Source: Phymorhynchus buccinoides
Lineage: Eukaryota; Mollusca; Gastropoda; Neogastropoda; Raphitomidae
Assembly (NCBI GenBank): GCA_017654935.2
Contig: CM065691.1
Location: 33,311,644-33,375,643 of the forward strand
Direction of reading: 5' to 3'
Length of the DNA: 64,000 nt
Under the pieces are notes generated by a model. That model ran no database searches. It saw only the letters and a list, made by a program, of their open reading frames with translations, and had not been told where the DNA came from. A program made the position numbers and the translations under genes. Shown in pieces: positions 25,966-55,529 of this stretch; positions within the stretch are counted from its first letter, which is position 1; the number at the start of each line of letters is the position of its first letter.

Positions 25966-26109
25966 CATATCTGGTCACAGACTCGTCGAAATCTGAGCTG
26001 CTCCCATCTGGAGAGGAGGAGGTCGCCACAACTGCTGCGCCACCTTTTTTTTACCAGCCGCGAACGAAGAGAGTGAAGCTGGTAAATGTTTTCAGTGGAT
26101 TCTGTTCCT

Positions 26110-31200: not shown

Positions 31201-33890
31201 ACCTATCATATCAACATAACATATTGCTAAGCAATTCCGAGACTTGCAAACAAAACGCCTCTCTAAGCACCTATCATATCAACATAACATATTGCTAAGC
31301 AATTCCGAGACTTGCAAACAAAACGCCTCTCTAAGCACCTATCATATCAACATAACATATGGCTAAGCAATTCCGAGACTTGCAAAACAAAACGCATCAA
31401 CATAACATATTGCTAAGCAATTCCGAGACTTGCAAACAAAACGCCTCTCTAAGCACCTATCATATCAACATAGCATATTGCTAAGCAATTCCGAGACTTG
31501 CAAACAAAACGCCTCTCTAAGCACCTATCATATCAACATAACAGCTAAGCAATTCCGAGACTTGCAAACAAAACGCCTCTCTAAGCACCTATCATATCAA
31601 CATAACATATTGCTAAGCAATTCCGAGACTTGCAAACAAAACGCCTCTCTAAGCACCTATCATATCAACATAACATATTGCTAAGCAATTCCGAGACTTG
31701 CAAACAAAACGCCTCTCTAAGCACCTATCATATCAACATAACATATTGCTAAGCAATTCCGAGACTTGCAAACAAAACGCCTCTCTAAGCACCTATCATA
31801 TCAACATAACATATTGCTAAGCAATTCCGAGACTTGCAAACAAAACGCCTCTCTAAGCACCTATCATATCAACATAACATATTGCTAAGCAATTCCAAGA
31901 CTTGCAAACAAAACGCCTCTCTAAGCACCTATCATATCAACATAACATATTGCTAAGCAATTCCGAGACTTGCAAACAAAACGCCTCTCTAAGCACCTAT
32001 CATATCAACATAACATATTGCTAAGCAATTCCGAGACTTGCAAACAAAACGCCTCTCTAAGCACCTATCATATCAACATAACATATTGCTAAGCAATTCC
32101 GAGACTTGCAAACAAAACGCCTCTCTAAGCACCTATCATATCAACATAACATATTGCTAAGCAATTCCGAGACTTGCAAACAAAACGCCTCTCTAAGCAC
32201 CTATCATATCAACATAACATATTGCTAAGCAATTCCGAGACTTGCAAACAAAACGCCTCTCTAAGCACCTATCATATCAACATAACATATTGCTAAGCAA
32301 TTCCGAGACTTGCAAACAAAACGCCTCTCTAAGCACCAATTCCGAGACTTGCATCATATCAACATAACATATTGCTAAGCAATTCCGAGACTTGCAAACA
32401 AAACGCCTCTCTAAGCACCTATCAAACAAAATCAACATAGCATATTGCTAAGCAATTCCGAGACTTGCAAACAAAACGCCTCTCTAAGCACCTATCATAT
32501 CAACATAACATATTGCTAAGCAATTCCGAGACTTGCAAACAAAACGCCTCTCTAAGCACCTATCATATCAACATAACATATTGCTAAGCAATTCCGAGAC
32601 TTGCAAACAAAACGCCTCTCTAAGCACCTATCATATCAACATAACATATTGCTAAGCAATTCCGAGACTTGCAAACAAAACGCCTCTCTAAGCACCTATC
32701 ATATCAACATAACATATTGCTAAGCAATTCCGAGACTTGCAAACAAAACGCCTCTCTAAGCACCTATCATATCAACATAACATATTGCTAAGCAATTCCG
32801 AAGACTTGCAAACAAAACGCCTCTCTAAGCACCTATCATATCAACATAACATATTGCTAAGCAATTCCGAGACTTGCAAACAAAACGCCTCTCTAAGCAC
32901 CTATCATATCAACATAACATATTGCTAAGCAATTCCGAGACTTGCACCTATCATATCAACATAACATATTGCAAAACGCAAACAAAACGCCTCTCTAAGC
33001 ACCTATCATATCAACATAACATATTGCTAAGCAATTCCGAGACTTGCAAACAAAGCGCCTCTCTAAGCACCTATCATATCAACATAACATATTGCTAAGC
33101 AATTCCGAGACTTGCAAACAAAACGCCTCGCTGTTCCGTTGCAAACAAAGCGCCTCTCTAAGCACCTTCATATCAACATAACATATTGCTAAGCAATTCC
33201 AAGACTTGCAAACAAAACGCCTCTCTAAGCACCTTCATATCAACATAACATATTGCTAAGCAATTCCCTTGCAAACAAAACGCCTCTCTAAGCACCAATC
33301 ATATCAACATAACATATTGCTAAGCAATTCCAAGACTTGCAAACAAAACGCCTCTCTAAGCAATATTGCAGGCACCAATCTTATCAACATAACATATTTC
33401 TTCCAAGACTAGCCAAGTATCATATCAACATAACATATTGCTAAGCAATTAATGCCTCTCTAAGCACCTATCATTCAACATTTGGCTCAAACAAAACGCC
33501 TCTCTATGCTACTGGCAGTGAAAGGGTTAAAAAAACGCCTCTCTACACCTATCATATCAAAAAACTAAGCAATCCAGACTTGCAAAAAAACCTCTCTAAG
33601 CACCTATCAGCTAAGCAATTAAAAGACAGACAAAACTAAATATCATCAGGGCTAAGCCTTTGTCATATCCCATATTGCTAAGCAATTCCGAGACTTGCAA
33701 ACAAAACGCCTACCGCTAAGCAATTATAAACGCCTCTCTAAGCACCTATCACAACATAGCATATTGCTAAGCAATTCCGAGACTTGCAAACAAAACGCCT
33801 CTCTAAGCACCTATCATATCAACATAGCATATTGCTAAGCAATTCCGAGACTTGCAAACAAAACGCCTTCTAAGCACCTATCTGCCAACA
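28241..33890. repeat. 68-bp satellite, copy 1 (about 83 units)
   Basis: Highly uniform units containing TTGCAAACAAAACGCCTCTC, TAAGCACCTATCATATCAAC and TATTGCTAAGCAATTCCGAG. Each unit has a small hairpin, TTGC-TAA-GCAA. The left edge starts cleanly, while the right kilobase (about 32.9-33.9 kb) is scrambled, with truncated units and an embedded MITE end (near 33510-33530). The array lies inside a LARP1-like intron. Open frames in it are an effect of a repeat without stops. Confidence 0.95.
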
Positions 33891-33904
33891 TAATCAAATA
33901 TTAA

Positions 33905-34140
33905 CCCTTTCACCGCCAACTGTCGCATTTTTGCACCACAATGTAACACACCATAATTGTCAAAACCCTTAAAACCAGGGTCTATTATTCAATAGTGTTC
34001 CTAAATTTGAAAGTAAGGATTGACCCTATTCTAAATGTGTCGCAAAGAAATCCCACAATATTGCAGATGAAATCTTTTCTGCAGCCAAGTAAGTTTAATG
34101 GATCCGGTTTTTAGCTCAAAGATGACTGGCGGTGAAAGGG
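33905..34140. mobile_element. piggyBac-like MITE with TTAA target duplication
   Basis: 236 bp flanked by TTAA (33901-33904 and 34141-34144), with inverted ends CCCTTTCACCGCCA...TGGCGGTGAAAGGG. CCC/GGG ends plus TTAA are the piggyBac footprint. The same termini seed the tandem arrays at 4967-5472 and 46501-47092. A decayed copy is at about 61880-62148. Confidence 0.8.
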
Positions 34141-34243
34141 TTAAAAAACTTTACAAACAAAAAACCTCCAGCAAAACCTGCATAGGCAATTAAAAGACAG
34201 ATCAAAACTAAAAGGGCTAAGCCTTTGTCCCCCATTGAAAGTA

Positions 34244-34422
34244 CCGTATTATACGGACTATACGGCGCTACTTTCCCCCCAGATTGAGAGCCTTGCGCCT
34301 TATATGCTATGTACTAGTAAATAATAGTAAGAAACTAAATAACCTAAAATTGAAGTTTTTGAGTCAAAAAAATTTGGGGAGCGCCTTATAATCAGGTGCG
34401 CCTTGTAGTCCGAAAAATACAG
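34244..34422. mobile_element. TA-flanked MITE (CCGTATTATACGGACTATACGGCGC)
   Basis: 179 bp with ends CCGTATTATACGGACTA...TAGTCCGAAAAATACAG and TA on each side. Same family as 381-776 and 40437-40611. Confidence 0.7.
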
Positions 34423-34677
34423 TACTGTTGTTGTTTTCTATGCCCAAATTGTTGGTCACTGTTTTCTCTCTACCCGCTCCTTGCAAATCTATGCAAACAT
34501 ACACTTGTTCACAGCTGCAACAGTTTCTTTAACCTACATAAAGGAGCAGAATAATATCACTTTTTTCCTACCCCCACCCCCTTCTTTTAAATCTATGCAA
34601 ACAATTGACTGTGCACAGCTGTAACAGTTTCCTCATCCTATAATATATGGATAGGATATATCCATTGAATTTACTAA

Positions 34678-34838
34678 AGGTCTGTGTAGTGTACACGTTA
34701 ACATTATTCACAAAATATCTATGTCCCCAGAGCAACACAGTGATAGGCCACTAATGTAATAATGGCGACTTACAACTCACTGTGTTGCCATGGGGAAATA
34801 GAAATATTTTGTGAATATGTTAACGTGCACACTGACCT
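34678..34838. mobile_element. Foldback element with 60-bp arms, copy 1
   Basis: The arms AGGTCTGTGTAGTGTACACG / CGTGCACACTGACCT continue inward through TTATTCACAAAATATCTATG to a short loop; nearly the whole 161 bp pairs with itself. No clear target duplication. Equivalent at 62685-62844. Confidence 0.65.
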
Positions 34839-35189
34839 AAACCTATTTTACCAACTATCAAGTATATCATACCATATCATTTTACGACAATTTCATTTTG
34901 TCATATTAGTTATTCGCATATCATTGGTCATATTAAGGCTGTATCACACTATTCAACTTTATAGAAAAAACACAGTGATTGCAGGTTAAGAAAAAAATTA
35001 AAATAAATAAAAATCACAGCCACTTTCAACTTCTTCTTCGTTCCCAAGACATATGGCCATAATGGGTAAGGTACGTATGTGTCCGTTTTTCATTTTTCAC
35101 TGGTCTCCCGTTGCGCACAGCCGACTGATTTCAGAGGAGCTCAAAGGAGAAAAAATATTTAGATTTCTTTTCTTTTTTTTAAAGGCAGT

Positions 35190-35970
35190 TAGAGAATGGG
35201 CCAATAAGATTAGAAAGATAGAAGATGATAGAAAGCAAAGGGAAAAGGCTGGAGAATGGGCCGATAAGTCACGAAAGATAGAAGATGATAGAAAGCAAAA
35301 GGGAAAAGGCAGGAGAATGGGCCAATAAGTTAGAAAGATAGAAGATGATAGAAAGCAAAGGGAAAAGGCAGGAGAATGGGCCAATAAGTTAGAAAGATAG
35401 AAGATGATAGAAAGCAAAGGGAAAAGGCAGGAGAATGGGCCAATAAGTTAGAAAGATAGAAGATGATAGAAAGCAAAGGGAAAAAGGCAGGAGAATGGGC
35501 CAATAAGTAGAAAGATAGAAGATGATAGAAAGCAAAGGGAAAAGGCAGGAGAATGGGCAACAATAAGTTAGAAAGATAGAAGATGATAGAAAGCAAAGGG
35601 AAAAGGCAGGAGAATGGGCCATAAGTTAGAAAGATAGAAGATGATAGAAAGCAAAGGGAAAAAAGGCAGGAGAATGGGCCAATAAGTTAGAAAGATAGAA
35701 GATGATAGAAAGCAAAGGGAAAAGGCAGGAGAACTGGGCCAATAAGTTAGAAAGATTGAAGATGATAGAAAGCAAAGGGAAAAAGGCAGGAGAATGGGCC
35801 GATAAGTTAGAAAGATAGAAGATGATAGAAAGCAAAGGGAAAAAGGCAGGAGAATGGGCCAATAAGTTAGAAAGATAGAAGATGATAGAAAGCAAAGGGA
35901 AAAGGCTGGAAAATGGGCCAATAAGTTAGAAAGATAGAAGATGATGAGAAAAGCAAAGGGAAAAGGCAGT
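35190..35970. repeat. 59-bp purine-rich minisatellite, copy 1
   Basis: About 13 units containing AGAAAGATAGAAGATGATAG and GGAAAAGGCAGGAGAATGGG. Strong purine/pyrimidine strand bias. Long minus-strand frames here are repeat artefacts. Confidence 0.92.
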
Positions 35971-36233
35971 CAAAGAGAGTGACAGATTAGAGGAAGTTAC
36001 AAGCACAGAAATTCCAGAAGGTGGGGGAACTATTTTTTTTGCGAAAGACCCCCCCGGTATCCCCACGGGGAGAGACTCATGGAAAGGGGCCGGGGTCGTC
36101 CAGCGTACGGAGGCACCCACTGCCCCGCCACTTTCAACAAAACTGAATAGTCAGATGACGCCTTTATAAGGCAAAGGGGTGTCGGTGAGGAAAAGAAGAA
36201 AGAAGAATAAAAAAACTGGCGTTCCCACATTAC

Positions 36234-36392
36234 CTCTTCCGTCAAAGGGCTTTCCTCCTCTTCCTCCTCGTGCCCCTCCTCCCCTGCCTCCTCTGCCCCT
36301 GCCCCGGCGCACCCCGTGGGGTCCGAAGCCTCCCGATCGCGGGGGCTGGCCGTCGCTGTGAGGGCTGGTGGGGCCGGGCAAACCACCGCCTT
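36234..36392 (-). CDS. LARP1: LARP1-like Gly/Arg-rich exon
   Basis: 159-bp exon, acceptor GTCGTGGGGCAG, donor GGAAGAG/GTAATG (phase 1). The frame that joins the next exon in phase encodes GGGLPGPTSPHSDGQPPRSG, then GVRRGRGRGGRGGGARGGRG and GKPFDGRG. RGG tracts of this kind are RNA-binding and lie upstream of the La motif in LARP1 proteins. Its second-copy equivalent would fall beyond the right window edge. Earlier exons are not visible between 36.4 and 46 kb. Confidence 0.7.
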
Positions 36393-37601: not shown

Positions 37602-37685
37602 ACAATCCCATCAGACTCATTAAATCAGTCTTATATTTTGCTTTCAAAGAATTCAAGCAAAAAAGGTAACATCATCTGGGATTGT
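37602..37685 (-). ncRNA. SNORD57: Box C/D snoRNA, U57-like, copy 1
   Basis: On the minus strand: 9-bp terminal stem ACAATCCCA/TGGGATTGT, C box AUGAUGU, D box CUGA, with guide GACTGATTTAATGAGT directly before the D box. The guide pairs with 18S rRNA CTCATTAAATCAGT. The fifth base upstream of the D box faces the A that is Am99 in human 18S, the SNORD57 target. An internal TTTTGCTT/AAGCAAAA hairpin is conserved in all copies. Same strand as the LARP1-like gene. Confidence 0.85.
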
Positions 37686-37959
37686 TCAATGTGAAAAATA
37701 TGCTCTTAAAGAAATACCTGTATGGGTTTTTTTAAAAAGCTTCCAAAATTGAAAGCAAACACACTAAAAATGGAAAAAATACGGGTCATAGAGGCATACT
37801 AGTAATTATGTTTTACAGTTTATCTTTCTAACCACCAGCCTTTGAGGAGATTTCAATGTCTCTGAGACAAGCTAGCAAGATAATTCAAAATGATGAAGAT
37901 AGCAGAAGAAACAAAATTAAACAATGAAAGTGTTTGCAGTTACCAATGTGTCCAACAAA

Positions 37960-38060
37960 TAGATGACTATAAAATAATAATAATAATAATGGTTATTTAC
38001 AGAGCACTTAATTCCCTTTGCAGGGAGCTCAAAGAACTGAACAAAGGCCTAAACACTAAC
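37960..38060. mobile_element. SINE/L2-type tail with TAA microsatellite
   Basis: (TAA)n followed by TTATTTACAGAGCACTTAAT and CTTTGCAGGGAGCTCAAAG. It resembles, in the opposite orientation, the AAAGCGCTATATAAAT tail at 41365-41455, a tail common in invertebrate and fish SINE/LINE2 repeats. Confidence 0.5.
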
Positions 38061-38716
38061 AATATCATATAAAAAATTATACATCATTAAATAAAATCCT
38101 AAGAATAACTCAACATGAATACAAGTAATTAATTGAAGTAAAAAATTAAAAAAAAGTGATGTAATAACACAAACAAATAAAAAAAAACACCAACCCCCTT
38201 CTTCTCCGTGCCCCCCCCCCAAAATCCCTCCCTCACCTTGTCTCCCTCCTCTTGCAGAAAAAAAAATTCTCCTCCTCTAATTGCTGTCCCTGTTGGGCGT
38301 CTTGCCCTACACTGTATAACACTCATCTGCCGGTCAAATCTGTTTGTCGTTGGATGCTAAAGAAAAAAGGTGGGTGAAAGTATGTGGTGTGTCAAAAAGA
38401 TGAGTCAGGCAGAGAAGTGTTGAAAACGAAATAACAGGAACAGAGTGGAAAACACTGTGTGGCAAAGCTATGTAAAGACGGGATTGGGGATGCCGAGTAA
38501 AAGAAAGAAGATTCCCTCGAGGATTGGGGAGTTTTTTAATACGGGGAAGTGGAGCAAGCCAGGTAGGGGAGTCGGAGGAAGATCTTTATATCTTTATAAT
38601 TTTAATTTATGAAATAGGGCATTTTAACAGCAATCACCCAAGTTTTCACAAAATCAACTACAGTTTTTTGTAAATCATTAGAACCCTGCTAATAACAAGC
38701 ACCTACATCTTATCTC

Positions 38717-38797
38717 ATCCCATCAGACTCATTAAATCAGGTTTTATATTTTGCTTTCATGGAATTCAAGCAAAAAAAAGTGGACATCATCTGGGAT
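38717..38797 (-). ncRNA. SNORD57: Box C/D snoRNA, U57-like, copy 2
   Basis: Stem ATCCCA/TGGGAT, C box AUGAUGU, D box CUGA. The guide CCTGATTTAATGAGT gives 13 contiguous pairs with 18S (CTCATTAAATCAG). Internal hairpin TTTTGCTT...AAGCAAAA kept. Flanks unrelated to the other copies. Confidence 0.82.
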
Positions 38798-39204
38798 TGT
38801 AAAATACTTTTTTGCTTCTGTCATCGAGTCAAGGAAAATCTTTTTGAAAATTGGTAAGGATAAAATGCTGTAAAAAATATCTTTAAACACTTAAGTCGAA
38901 AATTGATAGCAATTAAATAACCATGAAGCAGCTTTTGAGCTTTTTGCTTACAAAGCAATTGGCGGTTTGGCACACCATGATAATAATGTCAATAAATAAT
39001 TTCTTTAAAGCCCTGACAAAAAAAAGCAGCATTAACTACAATATTATTCCAAATCTACTTAATATCAGATGTGGCTGTCATGGTCTTTTTTGGAGTTACT
39101 GAATTCACAAATTATTTCCGGGGATTAAAAATGTTCAACAGCTGGAACTAATCTAATAATCTTAGTTATAAAGGGAAAGAACACAAATTCAAATTTCCAC
39201 GACT

Positions 39205-39285
39205 GATCCCATCAGACTCATTAAATCAGTTTTAATATTTTGCTTTCACAGAATTCAAGCAAACTATGGCACATCATCTAGGATC
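39205..39285 (-). ncRNA. SNORD57: Box C/D snoRNA, U57-like, copy 3
   Basis: Stem GATCCTA/TGGGATC, closed through one U-G wobble pair. C box AUGAUGU, D box CUGA, guide AACTGATTTAATGAGT with 15 pairs to 18S (CTCATTAAATCAGTT). Confidence 0.82.
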
Positions 39286-39989
39286 ATACTGTACTTCACA
39301 GAACCCTCAAAAATAAGCTATCAAATAGAATTATCGTCCATTCTTCAAATGTTTTTGGTCACGCCGTCTAATTAGACTATAAGTGACTTGGAGGCTGCGC
39401 AAATGCGCATAATGACTTTAAAAATAATAAAAAAAATAAAAATAAAAAACCTGTCCTAAAATCTTAGATTGTTGTGTAGTGTGTGTGTGTGTTTATGGAA
39501 CCTTTGTTTTAATTTGTTGTGAATTTTACAGAATTATCCTAGTATTCAAAGTTCCGTGAAAGATCACACATGGAAACAAAGATTTAGATAATCCAAAGTA
39601 CATTACATGCTCGTGACTCAGTTTATTATTATTCATGCTAAATTCAAAATGTCACGAACAAGTGAAACAATCTTAGTTTTTGGTACTTGTATGCAAGGGT
39701 TAAACCTGACCATTTTTTTTTCAAAAAAATAGAGAAAAAGGGAACAACGCCCCCCACGAAGCTGAGCACTTTTAATTCAATTTAAAGCAATTTGGATGCA
39801 TAATCAGGGGCTCTTATACAATGGCAATCAGGTTTTCACTTACAGCAAAGCTGGGGTTTTTTCCAGTCTTTATTATTTTTGTTGTTGAAAATATTCAAAA
39901 AACGGAATTCCTTCTGTACCGATTTTTCAAAAAAAGGATTTCCTTCCTGAGAAGGAAGCAGCTTAAGCCATGTGTATGTGAATTTTTCA

Positions 39990-40400
39990 GTTACTTTTTC
40001 TAATAGAAATGATTGATGATCTTGGGCAATACTTCTTCTTCGATCGCTCAACAGTTTCCCGTCAATTATGAGCACAGATGAGTCATGCTGCCCATTTGAT
40101 CTTGGGCCATACTTCTTCTTCTTCGATACTGAACAGTTTTCCGTCAATCATGAGACAGATTCCCGTCAATTATGAGCCCCCTGTCACATGCTGCCATTAT
40201 GCCGCCTATCTACCAGAATTTCATTCATGCTGCCCATTTGATCTTATAGGACATGCGTCAGAGCCTCCTATTTTGTTCTTCAATACGGGTACACTTCTGC
40301 GATCGCTCAACACAGTTTCCTGGTCAATTATGAGTGCAGATGCATCATTGCTTCCATTATGGTGGTTGGCCCTAACTAGGAAATAGGCCACACAAGTCAG
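39990..40400. repeat. Degenerate tandem repeat of about 90-130 bp
   Basis: Four diverged units sharing CGATCGCTCAACA, TTTCCCGTCAATTATGAG and CATGCTGCC. No coding sense. Confidence 0.55.
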
Positions 40401-40436
40401 CTTTCTTCGGCTAGGGGCCACTACGGGTATGCAATA

Positions 40437-40611
40437 CCGTATTTTACGGACTACAAGGCGCACCTGATTCCATAAGGTCGCACCCCCCAAATTTTACACA
40501 AAATTCATATTTTGTTATTTATAGTTTCTCACTATATTATCAGTCACATTATAAGGCGCCGGGGTCTCAGTCTATGAAAAAAGTATCGCCTTAATAGGCC
40601 GTAAAATACGG
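40437..40611. mobile_element. TA-flanked MITE (CCGTATTTTACGGAC)
   Basis: 175 bp, ends CCGTATTTTACGGAC...GGCCGTAAAATACGG, TA on both sides, and the family motif ACAAGGCGCACC. Confidence 0.75.
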
Positions 40612-40664
40612 TAACTTTTTTTAATCATGTATCAGACACTAGTCTTACATGCTACAAGTTCTAA

Positions 40665-40742
40665 GATTGATCAGACTCATTAAATCAGACTTTGGTTTTG
40701 CTTTCATCAAATTCAAGCAAAAACGTCACATCATCTGAGATC
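40665..40742 (-). ncRNA. SNORD57: Box C/D snoRNA, U57-like, copy 4 (weak stem)
   Basis: C box AUGAUGU, D box CUGA, guide CTGATTTAATGAGT (13 pairs to 18S) and internal TTTTGCTT...AAGCAAAA hairpin are all present. The terminal stem is poor (only GAT/ATC pairs), so this copy may be decaying. Confidence 0.6.
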
Positions 40743-40979
40743 AGAAACTGAAAACAAAAGAAAACACTAAAAGAATTTATCAAACATATTGTAAATCATT
40801 TGTTGCAATTCTGCTAAACACTCATAACAGTCAGCAAATTCTAATGCTGCCAGATTTCCTCAACCACATATTTTTTTCTTTAATATTTTCCTCGTAATTG
40901 TTTCAGGACGTCTTGAAAACATAAATATTTTGGAAAATGCCAAGTCCTTTCCATTGCTTTTTGTCAGATGTTGCGTGAA

Positions 40980-41275
40980 TATGTATGTGTGTGTACATGC
41001 ATGCGTGTGTGCTTTGGGTTTTTTGTGTTGTGTGTGCACGCATGTGTATGTGTGTGTGTCTGCATGCATGTGTGTGTGTGTCTGTCTGCATGCGTACATT
41101 GTGTGTGAGTGTATTTATATGTGTATCCTCTAACGTTTGTGTATGTGTGTTGGTGTATGTGGTCAGTTCCGTGCAACTCAGTTTGCTATGGCTTACTGAA
41201 TGAAAGATGAATAATGAGTCGGTGTCGATAAATGTGTATGTGTGTGTGTGTGTGAAATGAGAAGAGAGAGAGAGA

Positions 41276-41314
<39 letters not shown>

Positions 41315-41320
41315 GCGTTG
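40980..41320. repeat. TG and GA microsatellites
   Basis: TGTGTG/TGCATG-rich tract (40980-41260) followed by a pure GA run (about 41263-41312). Open frames here are low-complexity artefacts. Confidence 0.9.
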
Positions 41321-41364
41321 TTTGCTGGTTTTGTGTCATTCATAAACTATATTTTTTATGTCTA

Positions 41365-41455
41365 TTTGTTGATGAATATTTGATTGCAAAGCGCTTTGGG
41401 CTCATTTGAGGTAAAGCGCTATATAAATGTACTATTATTATTATTACTTACTTCT
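41365..41455 (+). mobile_element. SINE/L2-type 3' tail
   Basis: GCAAAGCGCTTTGGGC, then GGTAAAGCGCTATATAAATG followed by (TTA)n. This tail is known from many SINE/LINE2 families. Confidence 0.6.
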
Positions 41456-41904
41456 AAAACCCTGGTCAAATACATGCTTTAATAACTGTTCAATTAACCA
41501 CACTAAGTCAGTCAGTCATCCTCAAAGAGCCAGTCAATCAAAACAGTAAAAGACAGATGTGTACTTTAAAGTGCTTATTTTACAAATTTCATATAGTTCT
41601 ACAGACAGATTAATAGCTTGTTTAACAACATCCTACCAAACTAAAAGATTAGCTTTGCGAAGATTTTTGTGTTTTTTTAGTGATCTTAAATTGGAGGATA
41701 CAAAAGCTCTAAAATAAATTTTAAATGAACCTTCCAATGTCATCATAGCCAAGTATTTAAATTATTAAATGTTTACTCCATTTGGTAAAGGACAAAAAAA
41801 CAAAACTATGGGGGGAAAACTAAACAATATTTTGATACCCATAGCAACCTGGTGCATCATCATACAGAAAAAAGTCTTGTTAATAATATACAAAAATCAT
41901 AACT

Positions 41905-41986
41905 GATCCCATCAGACTCATTAAATCAGTTATGTATTTTGCTCTCATGGATTTCAAGCAAAATTGTGTTCACATCATGTGGGATC
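41905..41986 (-). ncRNA. SNORD57: Box C/D snoRNA, U57-like, copy 5 (best guide)
   Basis: Perfect 7-bp stem GATCCCA/TGGGATC, C box AUGAUGU, D box CUGA. The guide CATAACTGATTTAATGAG is complementary to 18 contiguous bases of 18S (CTCATTAAATCAGTTATG), the longest match in the window. First member of the tandem series that runs to 45922. Confidence 0.88.
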
Positions 41987-42773
41987 CTTCTTTCAGTTAC
42001 CATTTACTATCATGGCGAAATATTAAGAGCTTACATTCCTGAAGACACTCCAGATTTTTTTTTCCGTTGTTGTTGTTGATGATGATGATGATGATGATAT
42101 TTTGATGTTGGTGTTTTGATGTTGTTGGTGATGATGAGATTTTGCATAGTTTATAAACACAAAACATCAGCATTACCATAGAACAATATCACCAGCTTCA
42201 ATAACATTAAACAGCATACATTAATTGTAGTGATAGCCTGCTAGCTGACACATCACAGATAACATCTGGATCCCCCCTCCATCCCCAACATCAGCATACC
42301 ATAGAATATCACCAGCTTCAATAACATTAAACAGCATACATTAATTGTAGTGATAGCCTGCTAGCTGACACATCACAGATAACATCTGGATCCCCCCTCC
42401 ATCCCCAACATCAGCATACCATAGAACAATATCATATCACCAGCTTCAATAACATTAAACAGCATACATTAATTGTAGTGATAGCCTGCTAGCTGACACA
42501 TCACAGATAACACCTGGATCCCCCCTCCATCCCCAATCAATAGAGGATTATCCCGTTAGTTAATCCATAAAGAAGAGAACCACCCCAGTAAATCTGGCTT
42601 GTTTGGGGATAATTTATCACATGTGCCAACAGCAAAACTCATCAACTGGTGAATGTGTGAAAGGTAAACGACAGAAAAACAAACACACGGGAAAATGTAA
42701 ACAATATCTGATATCTATGGCAGCCTGGCACAGCAGCATACAGAAAAAAAAGTGTTTAAAACAAATTATAACT

Positions 42774-42855
42774 GATCCCATCAGACTCATTAAATCAGTT
42801 TTGTATTTTGCTCTCATGGATTTCAAGCAAAATTGTGTTCACATCATGTGGGGTC
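42774..42855 (-). ncRNA. SNORD57: Box C/D snoRNA, U57-like, copy 6
   Basis: Stem GACCCCA/TGGGATC with one mismatch, C box AUGAUGU, D box CUGA, guide with 15 pairs to 18S. Confidence 0.8.
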
Positions 42856-43341
42856 GTTCTTTGAGTTACCATTTACTATCATGGCGAAAGATAAGAGTTT
42901 AGATTCCTGTCTGCTGAAGACACTTCAGATTCTTTTTTTTATGTTATGTTTTTGTTGATGCAGTTTATAAACACAAAACATCAGCATACCATAGAACAAT
43001 ATCACCAGCTTCAATAACATTATAAAAAAAATTAAAGTTGTAGTGATAGCCTGCTAGCTGACACATCACAGATAACACCTGGATCCCCCCTCCATCCCCA
43101 ATCAATAAAGGATTATCCCGTTAGCTAATCCAAAAAGAAGAGAACCACCCCAGTAAATCAATCTGGCTTGTTTGGGGATAATTCATCATATGTGTCAACA
43201 GCAAAACTCATCAACTGGTGAATGTGTGAAAGGTAAATGACAGAAAAACACAAACACGGGGGAAATGTAAACAATATCTGATATCTATGGCAGCCTGGCA
43301 CAGCAGCATACAGAAAAAAGTGTTTAAAACAAATCATGACT

Positions 43342-43424
43342 GATCCCATCAGACTCATTAAATCAGTTTTGTATTTTGCTCTCATGGATTTCAAGCAAAA
43401 TTTTGTTCACATCATGTGGGGGTC
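43342..43424 (-). ncRNA. SNORD57: Box C/D snoRNA, U57-like, copy 7
   Basis: As copy 6, with one extra C in the 5' stem strand and TTTTG for TGTG in the spacer after the C box. Boxes and guide unchanged. Confidence 0.78.
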
Positions 43425-44022
43425 GTTCTTTGAGTTACCATTTACTATCATGGCGAAAGATAAGAGTTTAGATTCCCGTCTGCTGAAGACACTCCAGATT
43501 TTGTTTTTATGTTTTTGTTGATGTATAGTTGATAAACACAAAACATCAGCATACCATAGAACAATATCACCAGCTTCAATAACATTAAACAAAACTTGTA
43601 GTGATAGCCTGCTAGCTGACACATCACAGATAACATCTGGACCCCCCCTCCATCCCCAACATCAGCATACCATAGAACAATATCACCAGCTTCAATAACA
43701 TTAAACATTAAAAAAAAAAAAGTTGTAGTGATAGCCTGCTAGCTGACACATCACAAATAACATCTGGATCCCCCCTCCATCCCCAATCAATACAGGATTA
43801 TCCCGTTAGTTAATCCAAAAAGAAGAGAACCGCACTAGTAAATCTGGCTTGTTTGGGGATAATTTATCACATGTGTCAACAGCAAAACTCATAAGCTGGT
43901 GAATGTGTGAAAGGTAAACGACAGAAAAACAAACACACGGGAAAATGTAAACAATATCTGATATCTATGGCAGCCTGGCACATCATCAAACAGAAAAAAA
44001 GTGTTTAAAACAAATTATAACT

Positions 44023-44104
44023 GATCCCATCAGACTCATTAAATCAGTTTTGTATTTTGCTCTCATGGATTTCAAGCAAAATTGTGTTCACATCATGTGG
44101 GGTC
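44023..44104 (-). ncRNA. SNORD57: Box C/D snoRNA, U57-like, copy 8
   Basis: Identical in boxes and guide to copy 6; one higher-order period away. Confidence 0.8.
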
Positions 44105-44592
44105 GTTCTTTGAGTTACCATTTACTATCATGGCGAAAGATAAGAGTTTAGATTCCTGTCTGCTGAAGACACTTCAGATTCTTTTTTTTATGTTATGTTT
44201 TTGTTGATGCAGTTTATAAACACAAAACATCAGCATACCATAGAACACAATATCACCAGCTTCAATAACATTTTAAAAAAATTTAAAGTTGTAGTGATAG
44301 CCTGCTAGCTGACACATCACAGATAACATCTGGATCCCCCCTCCATCCCCAATCAATAAAGGATTATCCCGTTAGCTAATCCAAAAAGAAGAGAACCACC
44401 CCAGTAAATCAATCTGGCTTGTTTGGGGATAATTCATCATATGTGTCAACAGCAAAACTCATCAACTGGTGAATGTGTGAAAGGTAAATGACAGAAAAAC
44501 ACAAACACGGGGGAAATGTAAACAATATCTGATATCTATGGCAGCCTGGCACAGCAGCATACAGAAAAAAGTGTTTAAAACAAATCATGACT

Positions 44593-44675
44593 GATCCCAT
44601 CAGACTCATTAAATCAGTTTTGTATTTTGCTCTCATGGATTTCAAGCAAAATTGTGTTCACATCATGTGGGGGTC
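44593..44675 (-). ncRNA. SNORD57: Box C/D snoRNA, U57-like, copy 9
   Basis: Matches copy 7, including the extra C in the stem. C box, D box, internal hairpin and guide intact. Confidence 0.78.
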
Positions 44676-45273
44676 GTTCTTTGAGTTACCATTTACTATC
44701 ATGGCGAAAGATAAGAGTTTAGATTCCCGTCTGCTGAAGACACTCCAGATTTTGTTTTTATGTTTTTGTTGATGTATAGTTTATAAACACAAAACATCAG
44801 CATACCATAGAACAATATCACCAGCTTCAATAACATTAAACAAAACTTGTAGTGATAGCCTGCTAGCTGACACATCACAGATAACATCTGGATCCCCCCT
44901 CCATCCCCAACATCAGCATACCATAGAACAATATCACCAGCTTCAATAACATTAAACATTAAAAAAAAAAAAGTTGTAGTGATAGCCTGCTAGCTGACAC
45001 ATCACAAATAACATCTGGATCCCCCCTCCATCCCCAATCAATACAGGATTATCCCGTTAGTTAATCCAAAAAGAAGAGAACCGCACTAGTAAATCTGGCT
45101 TGTTTGGGGATAATTTATCACATGTGTCAACAGCAAAACTCATAAGCTGGTGAATGTGTGAAAGGTAAACGACAGAAAAACAAACACACGGGAAAATGTA
45201 AACAATATCTGATATATATGGCAGCCTGGCACATCATCAAACAGAAAAAAAGTGTTTAAAACAAATTATAACT

Positions 45274-45357
45274 GATCCCATCAGACTCATTAAATCAGTT
45301 TTGTATTTTGCTCTCATGGATTTCAAGCAAAATTTTGTTCACATCATGTGGGGGGTC
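45274..45357 (-). ncRNA. SNORD57: Box C/D snoRNA, U57-like, copy 10
   Basis: Boxes and guide intact. The C-run in the 5' stem is longest here (six C), which could shift pairing by a base or two. Confidence 0.75.
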
Positions 45358-45840
45358 GTTCTTTGAGTTACCATTTACTATCATGGCGAAAGATAAGAGT
45401 TTAGATTCCTGTCTGCTGAAGACACTTCAGATTCTTTTTTTTATGTTATGTTTTTGTTGATGCAGTTTATAAACACAAAACATCAGCATACCATAGAACA
45501 ATATCACCAGCTTCAATAACATTATAAAAAAAATTAGTTGTAGTGATAGCCTGCTAGCTGACACATCACAGATAACACCTGGATCCCCCCTCCATCCCCA
45601 ATCAATAGAGGATTTTCCCGTTAGCTAATCCAAAAAGAAGAGAACCACCCCAGTAAATCTGGCTTGTTTGGGGATAATTCATCACATGTGTCAACAGCAA
45701 AACTCATCAACTGGTGAATGTGTGAAAGGTAAATGACAGAAAAACACAAACACACGGGAAAATGTAAACAATATCTGATATCTATGGCAGCCTGGCACAG
45801 CAGCATACAGAAAAAAAAGTGTTTAAAACAAATCATAACT

Positions 45841-45922
45841 GATCCCATCAGACTCATTAAATCAGTTTTGTATTTTGCTCTCATGGACTTCAAGCAAAAT
45901 TGTGTTCACATCATGTGGGGTC
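45841..45922 (-). ncRNA. SNORD57: Box C/D snoRNA, U57-like, copy 11
   Basis: Boxes, hairpin and guide intact; carries GACTTCAAGC where the others have GATTTCAAGC (plus strand). Last member before the gap. Confidence 0.8.
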
Positions 45923-46000: not shown

Positions 46001-46500
46001 NNNNNNNNNNNNNNNNNNNNNNNNNNNNNNNNNNNNNNNNNNNNNNNNNNNNNNNNNNNNNNNNNNNNNNNNNNNNNNNNNNNNNNNNNNNNNNNNNNNN
46101 NNNNNNNNNNNNNNNNNNNNNNNNNNNNNNNNNNNNNNNNNNNNNNNNNNNNNNNNNNNNNNNNNNNNNNNNNNNNNNNNNNNNNNNNNNNNNNNNNNNN
46201 NNNNNNNNNNNNNNNNNNNNNNNNNNNNNNNNNNNNNNNNNNNNNNNNNNNNNNNNNNNNNNNNNNNNNNNNNNNNNNNNNNNNNNNNNNNNNNNNNNNN
46301 NNNNNNNNNNNNNNNNNNNNNNNNNNNNNNNNNNNNNNNNNNNNNNNNNNNNNNNNNNNNNNNNNNNNNNNNNNNNNNNNNNNNNNNNNNNNNNNNNNNN
46401 NNNNNNNNNNNNNNNNNNNNNNNNNNNNNNNNNNNNNNNNNNNNNNNNNNNNNNNNNNNNNNNNNNNNNNNNNNNNNNNNNNNNNNNNNNNNNNNNNNNN
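46001..46500. other. Assembly gap, 500 N
   Basis: Exactly 500 N. It separates the snoRNA array from the start of the second copy of the duplicated block. Confidence 0.98.
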
Positions 46501-47092
46501 GCACCACAATGGTTGTGTTAAAGACATCCAATCCAGACCTGTTATCCAAAGACCCTATTTTCTTAACCCTTTCACCGCCAATGTCGCATTCATGCACCAC
46601 AATGGTTGTGTTAAAGACATCCAATCCAGACCTGTTATTCAAAGACCCTATTTTCTTAACCCTTTCAGTTTCACCGCCATTGTCGCATTCATGCACCACA
46701 ATGGTTGTGTTAAAGACATCCAATCCAGACCTGTTATCCAAAGACCCTATTTTCTTAACCCTTTCACCGCCATTGTCGCATTCATGCACCACAATGGTTA
46801 TGTTAAAGACATCCAATCCAGACCTGTTATCCAAAGACCCTATTTTCTTAACCCTTTCACCGCCAATGTCGCATTCATGCACCACAATGGTTTAATACGC
46901 ATGTCACTAAAAGGCATCAAATCAGGGCCTGTTATCCAAAGACCCTATTTTCTTAATTTTGGGAGGTAAGGATAGGCCTAATGTTATGCATGTCACCGAG
47001 GAATTCGCAATATTGCAGAGATATTTTTCTCTACCCAGAGTTAGTTTAATGGTGTTTTTTGGCTGAAAAATGGCTGGCGGCGCAAGGGTTAA
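46501..47092. repeat. MITE-derived tandem array, copy 2
   Basis: Four to five 93-99 bp units starting TTAACCCTTTCAC, closing with GGCGGCGCAAGGGTTAA. Equivalent to 4967-5472. Confidence 0.75.
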
Positions 47093-47724
47093 AAAACCAA
47101 CATCACCAAACAAACAAAAAACATGGGGTCAACCAACTAAATAGAAAAGAATTGATTGCATGTTGAGGCATTTGATCAGAATCACAAAGTTATCAAGCTT
47201 AACGGATAACTGCCTACCTGACTGTAGTTTTTCTCAAAACTACCGTTGCCTCACACAAGTAAGGTGTGAGCAATTTCACAAAATTATGTCAACAATACTG
47301 GATCAACACGTGTGCCCAACCTTTTTTTTTTATTAGCTCGTTTATTATTAAGCGCATAGATCAAAATTGGAGAGAAAAAAGATTGCCTTATAGACAGTAG
47401 AGTACATAAAATTGGATAACATGAAATATTGGCTAATACACAAAAATCTGTCTGAACTGATGATACCCCTCTTTATTATTACTTAATGCTTAACACAAAA
47501 TAATGTTAACGCACACAAATCTGTTTGAACTGATGATACCCCTCTTTATTATTACTTAATGCTTAACACAAAATAATGGTTAACGCACACAAAAATCTTA
47601 GTCCCCTGAATTTCGTGTACTCCACTGCAACCCGAAAATTACGGTAGTCAAAATTACTTGATTACTGTATTTTTTTTAAAAGCCTCCAATGACTGGTAAA
47701 ATTCCTTCACTATTTTTTTTTTAT
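47093..47724. other. Flank with the empty DIRS target site
   Basis: Same sequence as 5473-5965 joined directly to 18399 onward. An internal segment of about 80 bp (AACTGATGATACCCCTCTTT...) is duplicated here but single in copy 1. No gene seen. Confidence 0.8.
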
Positions 47725-49300
47725 AGAACATGAACACCACATTATTTTTCATGAGAATTTAAAATTTCAAAATGTTTATACAAATAGAATGCACACATGC
47801 AAACACACACTTTCTTCACTGTTTTTCAAAGAACATGAACACAAACATACCACATTGTTTTCCATGAGAATTTAAAAGTGTTCATATTTTTCACACAAGC
47901 AGCATGCACACATGCAAACACACACTTTCTTCACTGTTTTTCAAAGAACATGAACACAAACATACCAGACTGTTTTCCATGAGAATTTAAAAGTGTTCAT
48001 ATTTTTCACACAAGCAGCATGCACACATGCAAACACACTTTCTTCACAGTTTTTCAAAGAACATGAACACAAACATACCACATTGTTTTCCATGAGAATT
48101 TAAAAGTGTTCATATTTTTCACACAAGCAGCATGCACACATGCAAACACACTTTCTTCACTGTTTTTCAAAGAACATGAACACAAACATACCACACTGTT
48201 TTCCATGAGAATTTTAAAGTGTTCATATTTTTCACACAAGCAGCATGCACACATGCAAACACACTTTCTTCACTGTTTTTCAAAGAACATGAACACAAAC
48301 ATACCAGACTGTTTTCCATGAGAATTTAAAAGTGTTCATATTTTTCACACAAGCAGCATGCACACATGCAAACACACACTTTCTTCACTGTTTTTCAAAG
48401 AACATGAACACAAACATACCAGACTGTTTTCCATGAGAATTTAAAAAGTTCATATTTTTCACACAAGCAGCATGCACACATGCAAACACACTTTCTTCAC
48501 TGTTTTTCAAAGAACATGAACACAAACATACCACACTGTTTTCCATGAGAATTTAAAAGAGTTCATATTTTTCACACAAGCAGCATGCACATGAACACAA
48601 ACATACCACACTGTTTTCCATGAGAATTTAAAAGAGTTCATATTTTTCACACAAGCAGCATGCACACATGCAAACACACACTTTCTTCACTGTTTTTCAA
48701 AGAACATGAACACAAACATACCACACTGAGAATTTAAAAGAGTTCATATTTTTCACACAAGCAGCATGCACATGAACACAAACATACCACACTATTTTCC
48801 ATGAGAATTTAAAAAGTTCATATTTTTCACACAAGCAGCATGCACACATGCAAACACACACTTTCTTCACTGTTTTTCAAAGAACATGAACACAAACATA
48901 CCACACTGTTTTCCATGAGAATTTAAAAGTGTTCATATTTTTCACACAAGCAGCATGCACACATGCAAACACACTTTCTTCACAGTTTTTCAAAGAACAT
49001 GAACACAAACATACCACACTATTTTCCATGAGAATTTAAAAGAGTTCATATTTTTCACACAAGCAGCATGCACACATGCAAACACACTTTCTTCACTGTT
49101 TTTCAAAGAACATGAACACAAACATACTACACTGTTTTCCATGAGAATTTTAAAGTGTTCATATTTTTCACACAAGCAGCATGCACACATGCAAATACAC
49201 TTTCTTCACTGTTTTTCAAAGAACATGAACACAAACATACCACACTGAGAATTTAAAAGTGTTCATATTTTTCACACAAGCAGCATGCACAAATATAAAC
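47725..49300. repeat. 113-bp minisatellite, copy 2
   Basis: Same unit as 18473-19995 but with a different order of variant units and internal deletions (for example GCATGCACATGAACAC junctions near 48585 and 48770). Confidence 0.92.
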
Positions 49301-49350
49301 ACACTTTCTTCACTGTGTTTTTTGGGGGGTGTAGAGCATATACAAACATA

Positions 49351-49823
49351 CAGGCATGAAAACTACTGTTCCCCCAAAAAGAGGAGATTTTTTCAGCCGA
49401 GAAATCCTTCCACCCGGATTTTCAGCTGACGTCAGAAGTTTTGTTGAGCGGGGGGGACTGTTACCCCAAAAATATTTTGGCACAAAAAAATAACGTCAGA
49501 ACTTTTGTTCAGTGGAAGGGGGGGGACTAATCTGTTCCCAAAAATTGGAAACGGCGGAGCTGTTTTCATGCCTGATATTTCTTCTTCTAATTCACCCATT
49601 CTTTGTGCACAGCTTGCTCTTCAGACGCCATTTTGGAAGTGATGACGTTGGGAGGAGGAGAAGGCGCGAAATGATGATCGTGCCATTTAAAGACCCAGCA
49701 TGCCGAGTTTTTATTCGATTTTCGATTTTTTTTTATTTTTTAGGCAGAGATTTTTTTTTAAGGCGGAGATTGGTCGATTTCGGAAAAAATTAGGCGGAGA
49801 AAATGGAGATGTTTTCATGCCTG
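49351..49823. mobile_element. CAGGCATGAAAAC element, copy 2
   Basis: Same insertion as 20044-20513 with the same AACATA flanks. A GAGCGGGGGGGACTG stretch near 49446 is absent from copy 1. Confidence 0.65.
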
Positions 49824-51340
49824 AACATAGCACCACATTATTTTCCCTGATAATTTAAAAGTTTTCATATTTTTCACACAAACAGCCTGCACACATGCAA
49901 GTTATACATACTCTTCACTGTTTTTATAAAATATTAAAACCATATAAGGATTTTGGTACAGTGTTCTACGGGGTTCGCATGATACGATCTTAAAAAAAAG
50001 TGAGTCTTCCTTGGTGGAGATTTGCACAAGTGTTTTTATACGGGACCATCTGTGTACCATGACAAACCACCACACAAAATTTGAAGCGATTCTGTGCACG
50101 GCTTTATGAGTTACAGGGCGAACAAACAAACACACAGAAACACAATGAATTTTGTTATATAGGTATAGATTATACACAAACATTATACCACATTATTTTC
50201 CTGAGAATTTAAAAGTTTTCATCCTTTTTTACACAAACACATGCATGGTTTGAAAAAGAGAAAAAGAGAGTATTTACCCTTTGTTCAATTTCGTTATCTC
50301 CTCTCTTGGCCTCACTATTTCATTCTTTGATTAACCAAACTTTCTTTCGAGGCTTACAAGTTTGTTCTGTGTTGTGTGTTGTTTATGTGTAACATATTCA
50401 AGGTTAGAAGGCTATGCCACTCTTGGATAGATGTTGATTTGTTTGTATGTCGTCCTCTCCACCATTGTTGATGTGTACTATGTGGGTGGAGGGTCATAAA
50501 GGCGAACTTGGCACATTCTTTTTTAAGAATGATGCTTTGCTTGTCTCACTTTGGTTCTGACCCACACACTGCTAGGTGGATGGTATCGTAATCAACTTTG
50601 GTGGAGGGGACTTAATTAGAAAAAGAGAGTAATTACCCTTTGTTCAATTTTGGACATACACACAGTTCATATAAAATCTTTTTTTCTTGTTGCATCAAAA
50701 TCAATGTAAATGTCACCTCAACACGTAAAAACAAGATAGCACCAAGATATGTCAGTGCTACCTGTAGCAATAATACTGTACTGATAACAAAACACCATTC
50801 AAGCAACCCAGTTCTGATCTATGTTTAAAAATATAGCTTTTGCATTTGTTATGCTTTCACTGTAAATAATCCTTTTTTGTAAATAATCCTTTTTTGAGGC
50901 CATCGCTTCATATTAGATGGCGGTACCATAGCCGATGAGGTTTAACCGAGGCGTGGTTACCGCTACACCTATCTGTATTGTTAAAAAAATCGGGACTTTA
51001 CTGGAGTTGCACTGCCTCCGGGCATTGCCTCCAGTATCGTTCCCACCATCTTTGTATTTACAAATGTCCCATATGTGTCTGTTCCAGACCGAGAGGACGT
51101 AAAACACAATTTTTCATTCATTCATTCTGTAAATAACGACTATATTACAACGGCGCAGCACACTGTAAATGTGGAGTCCAGGGGAAACAATCCACCAGGC
51201 TTGTAGCAAAACAGCCATTCTCACTTACTGATGTTTTAACCCTTTCATCGCCACCGTCGCCTCTTGGCACCACAATGATTGGACACCCATGTCACTAAAA
51301 GGCATCAAATGAGGATCTGTTATCCAATGGTCGACCTATG

Positions 51341-51533
51341 GCGATATTTTTCACGCCAGAGGGCAGTCAATGCACTAGGGGCTTATCACGAGATTTTCTT
51401 ACTTGGGCGTAGTGAGAGAGAGAGTGATGGTAGGACCACTCACTGTCTCTCTCTCTCTCTTTATCCCCAACTAATAATATAGAGAGGATTAGCCCCACAC
51501 GAGCGTCATGCCCTCTGGCGTGAGAAAAATCGC
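51341..51533. mobile_element. Foldback MITE CACGCCAGAGGGCA, copy 2
   Basis: Equivalent of 22040-22232. The surrounding 49824-52300 matches 20514-23010 and shows no gene. Confidence 0.65.
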
Positions 51534-52309
51534 ACTAAGTCTCTCATTACCCTAAGTTCTTAATTAAGACCTCATTTTGGATGATTTTTTTTTTAGGTCT
51601 TATAAGGGAGGTTCCACTGTATATAGATAAGGAGCTCTCAGCAGATAACACACAGGGGTCAAAAAACAGTTAAATTTTTTTTTTTTTAAAGCGTCTTATT
51701 GGCCGAACTTCACGGTACATCAGCAAAGATTCTGGAGCATAACTTGTGCTCCAATGCTTGACACGACACGCCACACTGTATGTAGGTGAAGACCAATTCT
51801 GGGGTTTCTCCCAACTCTTATTGCAAAAAAAGCACGTGATTTACATAATTATGCTGTAAGTGTCAGGAAATACAATTTAGAATACAGGGAGAAACAAACA
51901 TTTTACGAAATGGAAGACTCTGTGGGGGGAAAAAGAAAGCGTTTATCTGCTTTGTGCAAGATCAAAACCAAAACATGCTAATTGGTTAATAAACGAATAA
52001 AAAAGCAAGCAAAAAAACCAAAACAAAAAACACTGCCGACTGGAACATGAAAAAAACCCCAAAAGAAGTTAAAAACAAAAGCATGCTCAGAAAAGCTTAC
52101 AAAATCCCAAACCATAAAAAAACATACAAAAGCAGGCCTATTAATGCAAAAAAAAATTCTAAGCCAGATAAAATACACATACATTACAAAGCACACACAA
52201 AAGTGAGAGAAAGAAAAGGTTTGGATGGGATACGGAAACCTAGCAATCTTCAAAATAAGTCTTTATTTGGGGGTATTTGGTATTTTATAGTCACAGAGGC
52301 ATCTCAGTG

Positions 52310-52610
52310 AAATTCGGGTTGCTCCCACCTGGAAAGGGTGTCGCAAACAGAGGTGCACCACCTTTCCTTAAAAATTCTATTTGCATGTGAATTTTGTGAC
52401 TGATGAGGAAGGAAAGGTTGACTAAGTGACATGTGCTAAGTGCATGGGCACACGGGACCTCAATATATCGTCTCATCCGAAAGACTCCACGTTCAGACCG
52501 TTAAGGCCTAGTGCAAAGTGAGGAAAAAAAACCTGTACCCAGGTTCAAACTTGGGTTTATTGCATACGAGGTGAACATGTTACCTCTGTGCCACTCTACA
52601 CACATTTTAG
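52310..52610 (-). mobile_element. tRNA-headed SINE, copy 2
   Basis: Equivalent of 23020-23346, with a 37-bp-scale internal deletion near 52430 and the B-box region changed to AAGTTTGAACC. Confidence 0.6.
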
Positions 52611-52855
52611 GGCTAGTAAGGAACTCAGGACAGCCAGGAATATACAGGAATATATTAACAAGAAGGGAGTAATCGTCTTGATGAGCTAAGAAGGGAGTCT
52701 GAGAATCGGGGGGGGGGGGGGGGGGGGGGGGGGGGTGTACATGTGGAAGGAGGTCCCAACACCTGAAACTACAATTCCTGAAAAAAACCCCAAAAAACTG
52801 CAACGAAAAACCAAGAACCTGAGACCAAACTTCATAAAAACCTCATAACCAGGAT

Positions 52856-52861
52856 TTTATT
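52856..52861 (-). terminator. Poly(A) signal AATAAA, LARP1-like copy 2
   Basis: AATAAA 8 bases beyond the stop codon of the terminal exon. A signal this close to a stop implies a very short 3' UTR, or that a more distal signal is used. Confidence 0.55.
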
Positions 52862-52868
52862 GTTCGGC

Positions 52869-54269: not shown

Positions 54270-54313
54270 CTGTGAAGAGAGAAAAGAACGGAAATTACAA
54301 CACACACTGCATT

Positions 54314-55108
54314 CAGACCTGCCAACCCGGAGTTTTCAGTTGGAGCACTTTTTTTAAAACGGAAATTGGTGTATTTTTGGGGGAAAAGGAGTACTCTGAG
54401 GACAACTCTAATATGCAAGTATGTAGGGATTAACTTGCCTGGAACTACCTTTTTGTCGCTGTCAATAAATATCACGAACTGTGTCTTTTTCCCGGGCAGA
54501 CAAAGTCTTCTTCGACATAAATGCTTCTATGCACACTGAGCCTGCTGCAGCTTCCTTCATTTTTTTGGCAGTCTTGGTGCTTTTTCCTGCCACAGTGCCG
54601 CTCAATGTCGAACTTTCCAGAACTGGCAATGGAGAAGTCCACTTTACACTGTTTACAGTAGCTGCAGTATGCGTGAGTGATTCCCAGCGTCGACTGTCTA
54701 ATTCCAGGGATTGTTGTATATCACTGAAGACATTTTTGTGATCTTGCTGGCGCTACTGGCGACTTCTTTGCTTCGCCTTCGTCAGGTGGGTTGTCGATCT
54801 TTCGTTTCGACATCTTGAGGCCTCACTTCGGTGCATGTAAAACGGATTTGATGAAACAACATGGCGCGCACACTTCTCGCGCCGCGAGATTTGACCAATC
54901 GAGATTTGTTTGCAAGTTGTGGCTCCACTCCAGCACTTCGCCGTTACGCTAAATCGCGCCGATTTCAATCGTTTAGCTGAATTTTAAAATAAAAAAATGT
55001 TCACTAGGATTTTTTAATGTCGTATTTTTTATTCACCCGACGTACTGGTCGTATTTTGAGTAAATTGGCATACAAAATACGCCAAAATCGTATGGGTTGG
55101 CAGGTCTG
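54314..55108. mobile_element. TIR element with BED-like zinc-finger fragment, copy 2
   Basis: Equivalent of 24897-25681, same TIRs, TGCATT flanks and finger remnant. Confidence 0.65.
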
Positions 55109-55122
55109 TGCATTGCATTGTA

Positions 55123-55273
55123 CAGTAGAACCTCCTTATAAGACCTTAAAAAAATCATCCAAAATGAGGTCTTATATGGGAGGTAATTTTCAATACTTAC
55201 AAAGGGCAATGTAGGTCTTATATGGGAGGGAGTCTAATAATGGGATGTCTTATAAGGAAGGGACGTTCCACTG
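55123..55273. mobile_element. TA-flanked MITE (CAGTAGAACC), copy 2
   Basis: Equivalent of 25696-25845. Confidence 0.7.
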
Positions 55274-55529
55274 TATAGCATTGTATGGTATTGTATCGCA
55301 ATGTATTGTATACAGTATTGTATTGCATGTATTTTGCATCGCATTGTATCGTATACAGTATTGTATTGCATTGTTTGAATTGTGCTGCATTACATATCTG
55401 GTCACAGACTCGTCGAAATCTGAGCTGCTCCCATCTGGAGAGGAGGAGGTCGCCACAACTGCTGCGCCACCTTTTTTTTACCAGCCGCGAACGAAGAGAG
55501 TGAAGCTGGTAATGTTTTCAGTGGATTCT

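Follow-up and report, generated by a model that had tools for sequence, protein, structure and literature searches.

We analyzed a stretch of 64,000 nucleotides (nt) from the gastropod Phymorhynchus buccinoides (assembly GCA_017654935.2, contig CM065691.1, positions 33,311,644 to 33,375,643 of the forward strand). We refer to this whole stretch as the window, and all coordinates count from its first letter. On the minus strand, at 37.6-45.9 kb, the window contains eleven copies of a U57-like box C/D small nucleolar RNA (snoRNA), all in the same orientation and within 8.3 kb. A first-pass annotation, made from the sequence alone, had noticed a motif that recurs eleven times on this strand, and we recovered the same number at the same place. 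We think it very probable that these are a family of paralogous U57 (SNORD57-type) box C/D snoRNA genes that are directed to A99 of 18S ribosomal RNA (rRNA), that arose in two waves of duplication, and that are likely intronic. What the sequence shows directly is the boxes, the guide, the family match, the pattern of constraint, and the history of duplication; transcription, processing, methylation, the host transcript, and a role of dosage are inferred. The features are as follows, with scores in bits from the Rfam model for SNORD57.

c1: 37607..37680, minus strand; box C starts at 37675 and box D ends at 37611; 9-bp terminal stem; 44.1 bits
c2: 38719..38795, minus strand; box C starts at 38790 and box D ends at 38723; 42.0 bits
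c3: 39208..39282, minus strand; box C starts at 39277 and box D ends at 39212; terminal stem with one G.U pair; 41.7 bits
c4: 40668..40739, minus strand; box C starts at 40734 and box D ends at 40671; terminal stem lost; 40.0 bits
c5: 41908..41983, minus strand; box C starts at 41978 and box D ends at 41912; longest guide pairing (19 nt); 41.4 bits
120-bp minisatellite: 42163..42536, minus strand; period 120, 3.0 copies; in the longest (869-bp) unit, between c6 and c5
c6: 42777..42852, minus strand; box C starts at 42847 and box D ends at 42781; young set; 43.2 bits
c7: 43345..43420, minus strand; box C starts at 43415 and box D ends at 43349; young set; 43.2 bits
c8: 44026..44101, minus strand; box C starts at 44096 and box D ends at 44030; young set; 43.2 bits
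c9: 44596..44671, minus strand; box C starts at 44666 and box D ends at 44600; young set; 43.2 bits
c10: 45277..45352, minus strand; box C starts at 45347 and box D ends at 45281; young set; 43.2 bits
c11: 45844..45919, minus strand; box C starts at 45914 and box D ends at 45848; young set; last copy before the gap; 43.0 bits
Assembly gap: 46001..46500, no strand; run of 500 N that starts 86 nt beyond box C of c11

Because the gap is so close to c11, further copies may be missing, and eleven is the assembled number (at least eleven). A search of the window for CTCATTAAATCAG that allowed up to 2 mismatches gave 11 matches, all of them exact and all within the array; shuffled sequences averaged 2.46 matches in this search, and 11 matches were reached by 1 of 100 shuffles. 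Similarly, CTGATTTAATGAGTCTGA occurs 11 times on the minus strand. A profile model built from the eleven copies did not find a twelfth copy in the window (E ≤ 5 with default filters).

Boxes, guide, and family match

The core of each copy is 64-68 nt from box C to box D and carries CTGATTTAATGAG, then a T, and then the box D. Box C is ATGATGT (AUGAUGU in the RNA) and box D is CTGA in all eleven copies, and in every copy the two boxes are at the proper spacing for a box C/D snoRNA. The canonical box C is RUGAUGA, so the copies in the array differ from it at the last base (T for A). There is an inner stem of the type TTTTGCTT/AAGCAAAA, with small variations: 95.6% of the cells are paired (9 pairs, 10 distinct rows), the outermost pairs are broken in some copies, and the closing pair is G.U in c5-c11. 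The terminal stem, CCCA/TGGG, is exact in 9 of the 11 copies; c3 has a single G.U pair in it and c4 has lost it, and across its helix, 77.1% of the cells are paired. The first-pass annotation had described the two boxes in every copy, the internal hairpin, and a terminal stem in most copies, and all three descriptions hold.

For the pairing with 18S rRNA, we used the human sequence, and this species' own 18S may differ. In the antisense element upstream of box D, all 14 positions are paired (13 by Watson-Crick pairs and the one that adjoins box D by G.U), and contiguous pairing extends to 14-19 nt, depending on the copy, with c5 the longest at 19. The fifth nucleotide from box D (D+5) falls on A99 of the human stretch. 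That the guide is complementary to a conserved segment of 18S, as had been claimed, is thus seen against the human sequence. The further claim that the D+5 rule leads to the equivalent of human Am99, the target of SNORD57, is supported both by the position of the guide and by a full-length match to the SNORD57 model (see below).

If the RNAs behave as U57 does, the usual C/D proteins (15.5K, NOP56, NOP58, and fibrillarin) would assemble on each of them, and the element upstream of box D would pair with 18S rRNA. The ribonucleoprotein would then direct 2'-O-methylation of the A that lies five nt from box D and corresponds to human Am99. Where a second (D') guide would be expected, there is the inner stem instead, so each RNA probably has one target, and a second target is unlikely. 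In a table of chicken snoRNAs, the entry for 18S A99 has a 13-nt 3' guide, yeast snR51 and mammalian U57 as counterparts, and a single isoform in intron 9 of NOL5A (PMC2653536); for chicken, this agrees with the earlier statement that vertebrate SNORD57 is single-copy and intronic.

Rfam's SNORD57 family (RF00274) matches all eleven copies across model positions 1-72 of 72, with scores of 40.0-44.1 bits. (The E-values were 5.5e-7 to 7.3e-6 in a search of an 8.6-kb stretch and 4.1e-6 to 5.5e-5 in a search of the whole window.) SNORD57 has no further match in the window at E ≤ 3, and the only matches to other families in the whole window at this threshold were beneath those families' cut-offs. 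The curated (gathering) cut-off for SNORD57 is 47 bits, and nothing in the window passes Rfam's gathering cut-offs. The covariance model, which the first-pass annotation had named as a check, therefore matches every copy at full length but leaves all of them under its curated cut-off, and this is why we call the copies U57-like and describe them as working like U57.

With SNORD57/U57, the copies share box C and box D, a 3' guide of at least 13 nt, the predicted target at 18S A99, the D+5 position, their length, and the full-length match to the model. In the Rfam consensus for SNORD57, a short stem (GCCU/AGGC) can be drawn at the position of the inner hairpin, but the computed best fold of the consensus is different. 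Unlike SNORD57, the array scores under the cut-off, and it has at least eleven tandem copies versus one gene in chicken. Judging from the sequence, these are real and well-supported U57-like genes. It is the number of copies that is unusual, and this is not a new kind of system.

Duplication history and constraint

Two age classes make up the array: c1-c5 are old and diverged, and c6-c11 are nearly identical to one another and stem from recent tandem amplification. The first-pass annotation mentioned neither these classes nor the gap. The bodies of c1-c4 are 82-88% identical despite unrelated flanks: their 80-nt flanks are 42-57% alike, which is the background level (random mean 48.5%, standard deviation 7.0). 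Between c5 and c6-c11, the body is 97-99% identical and the flanks are 67-77% identical. The units of c6-c11 are 95.1-99.4% identical over aligned columns, and for c7 versus c9, the body is identical and the 80-nt flanks beyond box D and box C are at least 99% identical. Going from c11 to c5, the distances between successive D boxes are 567, 681, 570, 681, 568, and 869 bp, so that a block of two units (about 1,250 bp) is repeated across c6-c11 and a longer unit follows. Single extra copies of the 120-bp minisatellite may explain the 681-bp units. Unequal crossing-over of the two-unit block would be the simplest cause of c6-c11 (or more copies).

Which parts of the RNA vary is informative about the old copies. 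Counting gaps, none of the columns vary in box C (0/7), the guide (0/14), or box D (0/4), or 0/25 together, while nearly all columns of the two spacers do (7/7 and 7/8, or 14/15 together). The other parts are intermediate (4/11 in the loop, 2/9 in each arm of the inner stem) or variable (5/7 and 6/7 in the terminal stem). The terminal stem is the most variable of the paired parts, and its pairing is partly kept (c1 and c3) and partly not (c4). Neither the search with up to 2 mismatches nor the profile search found a degenerate copy in the window, so the invariance of the guide is not due to our having picked exact copies. Since the boxes and the guide are constant while the spacers and the flanks diverged, c1-c5 look selected, with selection acting on several separate copies. 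The units of c6-c11 are so alike that the pattern of constraint says nothing about them.

It is possible, if doubtful, that only one or a few copies work and that the others (mainly c6-c11) were carried along by a satellite-like tandem amplification and add little or nothing. The similarity among c6-c11 extends beyond the RNA into its surroundings and can be explained without selection. Minisatellites and duplications are abundant in the region, the terminal stem of c4 is broken, and according to a paper on C/D prediction, many of the annotated snoRNA genes (a large part of them) are not expressed. However, c1-c4 and c5 hold the C box, the guide, and the D box constant while their flanks and spacers have diverged, which is unlike a pure passenger.

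A different concern is that the number eleven might be partly an artefact of assembly, with near-identical dimers expanded or collapsed beside the gap. We consider this unlikely, as the units differ in spacing and by scattered substitutions (95.1-99.4% identity), and c1-c5 are clearly distinct, so there are at least six kinds of copy whatever the true count is. Still, the gap of exactly 500 N starts 86 nt from c11, c7 and c9 are nearly identical in both the body and the 80-nt flanks, and the other gap in the window (4467-4966) adjoins a related repeat.

That c1-c4 have only the RNA itself in common, with unrelated flanks, might suggest that the copies spread by retroposition (as snoRNA retrogenes) instead of by local tandem duplication. 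This is very unlikely: there was no target-site duplication of more than 7 nt in c1-c5 (the five copies tested), runs of A within 60 nt are at most 7 long, all eleven copies are on one strand within 8.3 kb, and c5-c11 have flanks in common. Finally, it is scarcely credible that the likeness to U57 is accidental or that the RNA guides something else, because although the 17 specified bases of the guide and the D box occur by chance in three contigs from a viral collection, these contigs score just 14.7-16.7 bits with the array model and match nothing in Rfam at E ≤ 0.1, versus 75.0-112.7 bits for the array's copies (which trained this model), and box C, the spacing, the guide, and box D all agree with RF00274.

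Expression, host transcript, and surroundings

We predict that the U57-like RNAs are most likely released from the introns of a host transcript on the minus strand, perhaps with one copy per repeated intron in c5-c11. In these 7 of the 11 copies, box D is followed at 54-63 nt by an acceptor-like CCAG|G. Intronic C/D RNAs are described as lying at a set distance before the acceptor, with the branch point about 50 nt away in mammals, and SNORD116 as departing from this (PMC8162545). A 26-nt run, TTTCGCCATGATAGTAAATGGTAACT, lies shortly upstream of box C (41995-42020, minus strand) and is the same in c5 and c6 despite their differing neighbours. It could be a processing or promoter element.

Pfam scans of parts of the window recognised nothing NOP56-like (no search was aimed at NOP56). 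At 36234-36392 on the minus strand, there is an RGG-rich open stretch that ends at a donor-like GAG|gtaatg. We took this stretch to be reminiscent of SERBP1/HABP4, but SERBP1/HABP4 as the host gene (about 36392-36234) was not supported: the stretch had no Pfam match and no relative of solved structure at E ≤ 10, and 0 of 594 candidates from a protein collection matched at E ≤ 10, which is a weak negative for a short, low-complexity query. Of the SERBP1 motifs that we looked for, only RGRGG (within the RGG-rich stretch) and two RSGTD matches (at 21788 and 51091, in the flanking duplication) were present on the minus strand. Two stretches that look coding (32-394 and 1031-1375) had no convincing match.

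Several results count against a family of selected, intronic U57 genes. As to the introns, c1-c4 lack the acceptor-like CCAG|G, and the sites in c5-c11 are weak, below the threshold of our splice-site scan. For all 11 copies, the scan was negative for acceptors out to a distance of 160 nt. The acceptor-like sites are also nearer to box D than would be optimal in mammals, where the branch point is about 50 nt away. As to the family, all eleven copies score 3-7 bits beneath Rfam's cut-off of 47. As to the structure, the terminal stem of c4 is lost, and covariation within the array is not significant: its score was matched by 62 of 500 shuffles, the number of paired cells by 118 of 500, and the number of two-sided pair changes by 37 of 500. 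Among the seven copies that we folded, only c1 clearly beats its shuffles (z = -3.98; the other six had z = -0.53 to -1.36), and the best folds of c6 and c10 do not include the terminal stem. As to selection, c6-c11 arose too recently for their similarity to be proof of it.

The surroundings of the array are themselves duplicated. A large direct duplication relates 18400-36020 to 47800-64000 (offset of about 28-29.4 kb), and its three longest matches are 92-97% identical. Its start seems to be at 4967-5900 and 46596-47519 (95.7% identical), with the first block seemingly interrupted by some 12 kb of other sequence that contains a retroelement, and both of the 500-N gaps (4467-4966 and 46001-46500) adjoin its left end. 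Within 36.0-46.0 kb, just one element resembles the rest of the window over at least 80 bp, namely a dispersed repeat (40432-40618, about 190 bp), so the array lies outside the duplicated blocks that we saw.

Both duplicated blocks contain long arrays of a 68-bp tandem repeat (28244-33362 and 57660-61869; up to 99% alike within stretches). A 39-bp minisatellite (23797-24383 and 53078-53810) has open frames on both strands with a 13-residue repeat, which may be coding or may be chance. Sub-threshold matches to the U4 spliceosomal RNA on the plus strand, at 21608-21664 and 50910-50966 (27.7 and 29.0 bits; the cut-off is 46), are perhaps fragments or chance. At 7609-9417 on the minus strand, there is an open frame of 602 amino acids with reverse transcriptase and RNase H (Pfam RVT_1, E = 1.9e-19), which may be DIRS-like. 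With 7994 candidates scored, the best relatives of this frame are 55-58% identical, among the matches listed, and in the best 120 of 1617 matches, the three that name an organism are from sea snails (two from Nucella lapillus and one from Littorina saxatilis), which points weakly to a mollusc.

Comparison with other snoRNA clusters, and what the array means

The mammalian SNORD115 and SNORD116 clusters are like the array in having many C/D genes of the same family in tandem, and the array, too, consists of same-strand copies that arose by local duplication. Turnover with constrained elements is also common to both. But we know of no rRNA target for SNORD115 or SNORD116, which are imprinted and mammal-specific, whereas the array's guide fits a conserved site in 18S. 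The array would therefore not be an orphan (lacking an rRNA target), and we compare it with these clusters without filing it among them. SNORD115/116 are described as imprinted, mammal-specific clusters that undergo birth-and-death turnover with constrained functional elements (PMC4063771). SNORD116 genes are reported to sit in introns of repeated host units (PMC8162545), and the title of one paper calls SNORD116 orphan.

In Euglena gracilis, genes for modification-guide snoRNAs are reported to be present in many linked copies (PMC2784804). The array likewise has many linked guide-RNA copies, but Euglena is a protist with many other multi-copy genes, and the likeness is one of copy number and linkage. 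In a survey of 60 mammals, no SNORD family had a significant shift in copy number above the family level, and SNORD116 varies (PMC13197249). Full-text searches of an open-licence library, which covers part of the literature, gave no report of a U57 array. The type of gene is well known, and it is the pile-up of this housekeeping guide that is unusual. The first-pass annotation also considered so large a cluster to be unusual, and given that U57 is one gene in chicken, we agree.

Dosage may be the reason for keeping many copies. Tentatively, and we think this somewhat unlikely, a housekeeping guide for rRNA methylation might have become, in an invertebrate, a tandem transcription unit like that of SNORD116, with each repeat formed by an exon and an intronic U57. 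A large and still changing dose would then set how completely 18S A99 is methylated, or some of the copies would be freed to serve another target or a special tissue.

A 2026 paper on a snail genome lists only 10 snoRNAs. All eleven copies in the array are just under the public cut-off, which shows how such genes stay unseen. Whether an A99-type site is kept in other invertebrates is a testable question, given that a fly study describes human 18S 99-436 as a region with methylations that are unique to human in its comparison. If the U57-like genes work as we propose, then the combination of old, constrained copies and young, freshly amplified copies would amount to a natural experiment on how dosage affects one rRNA methylation.

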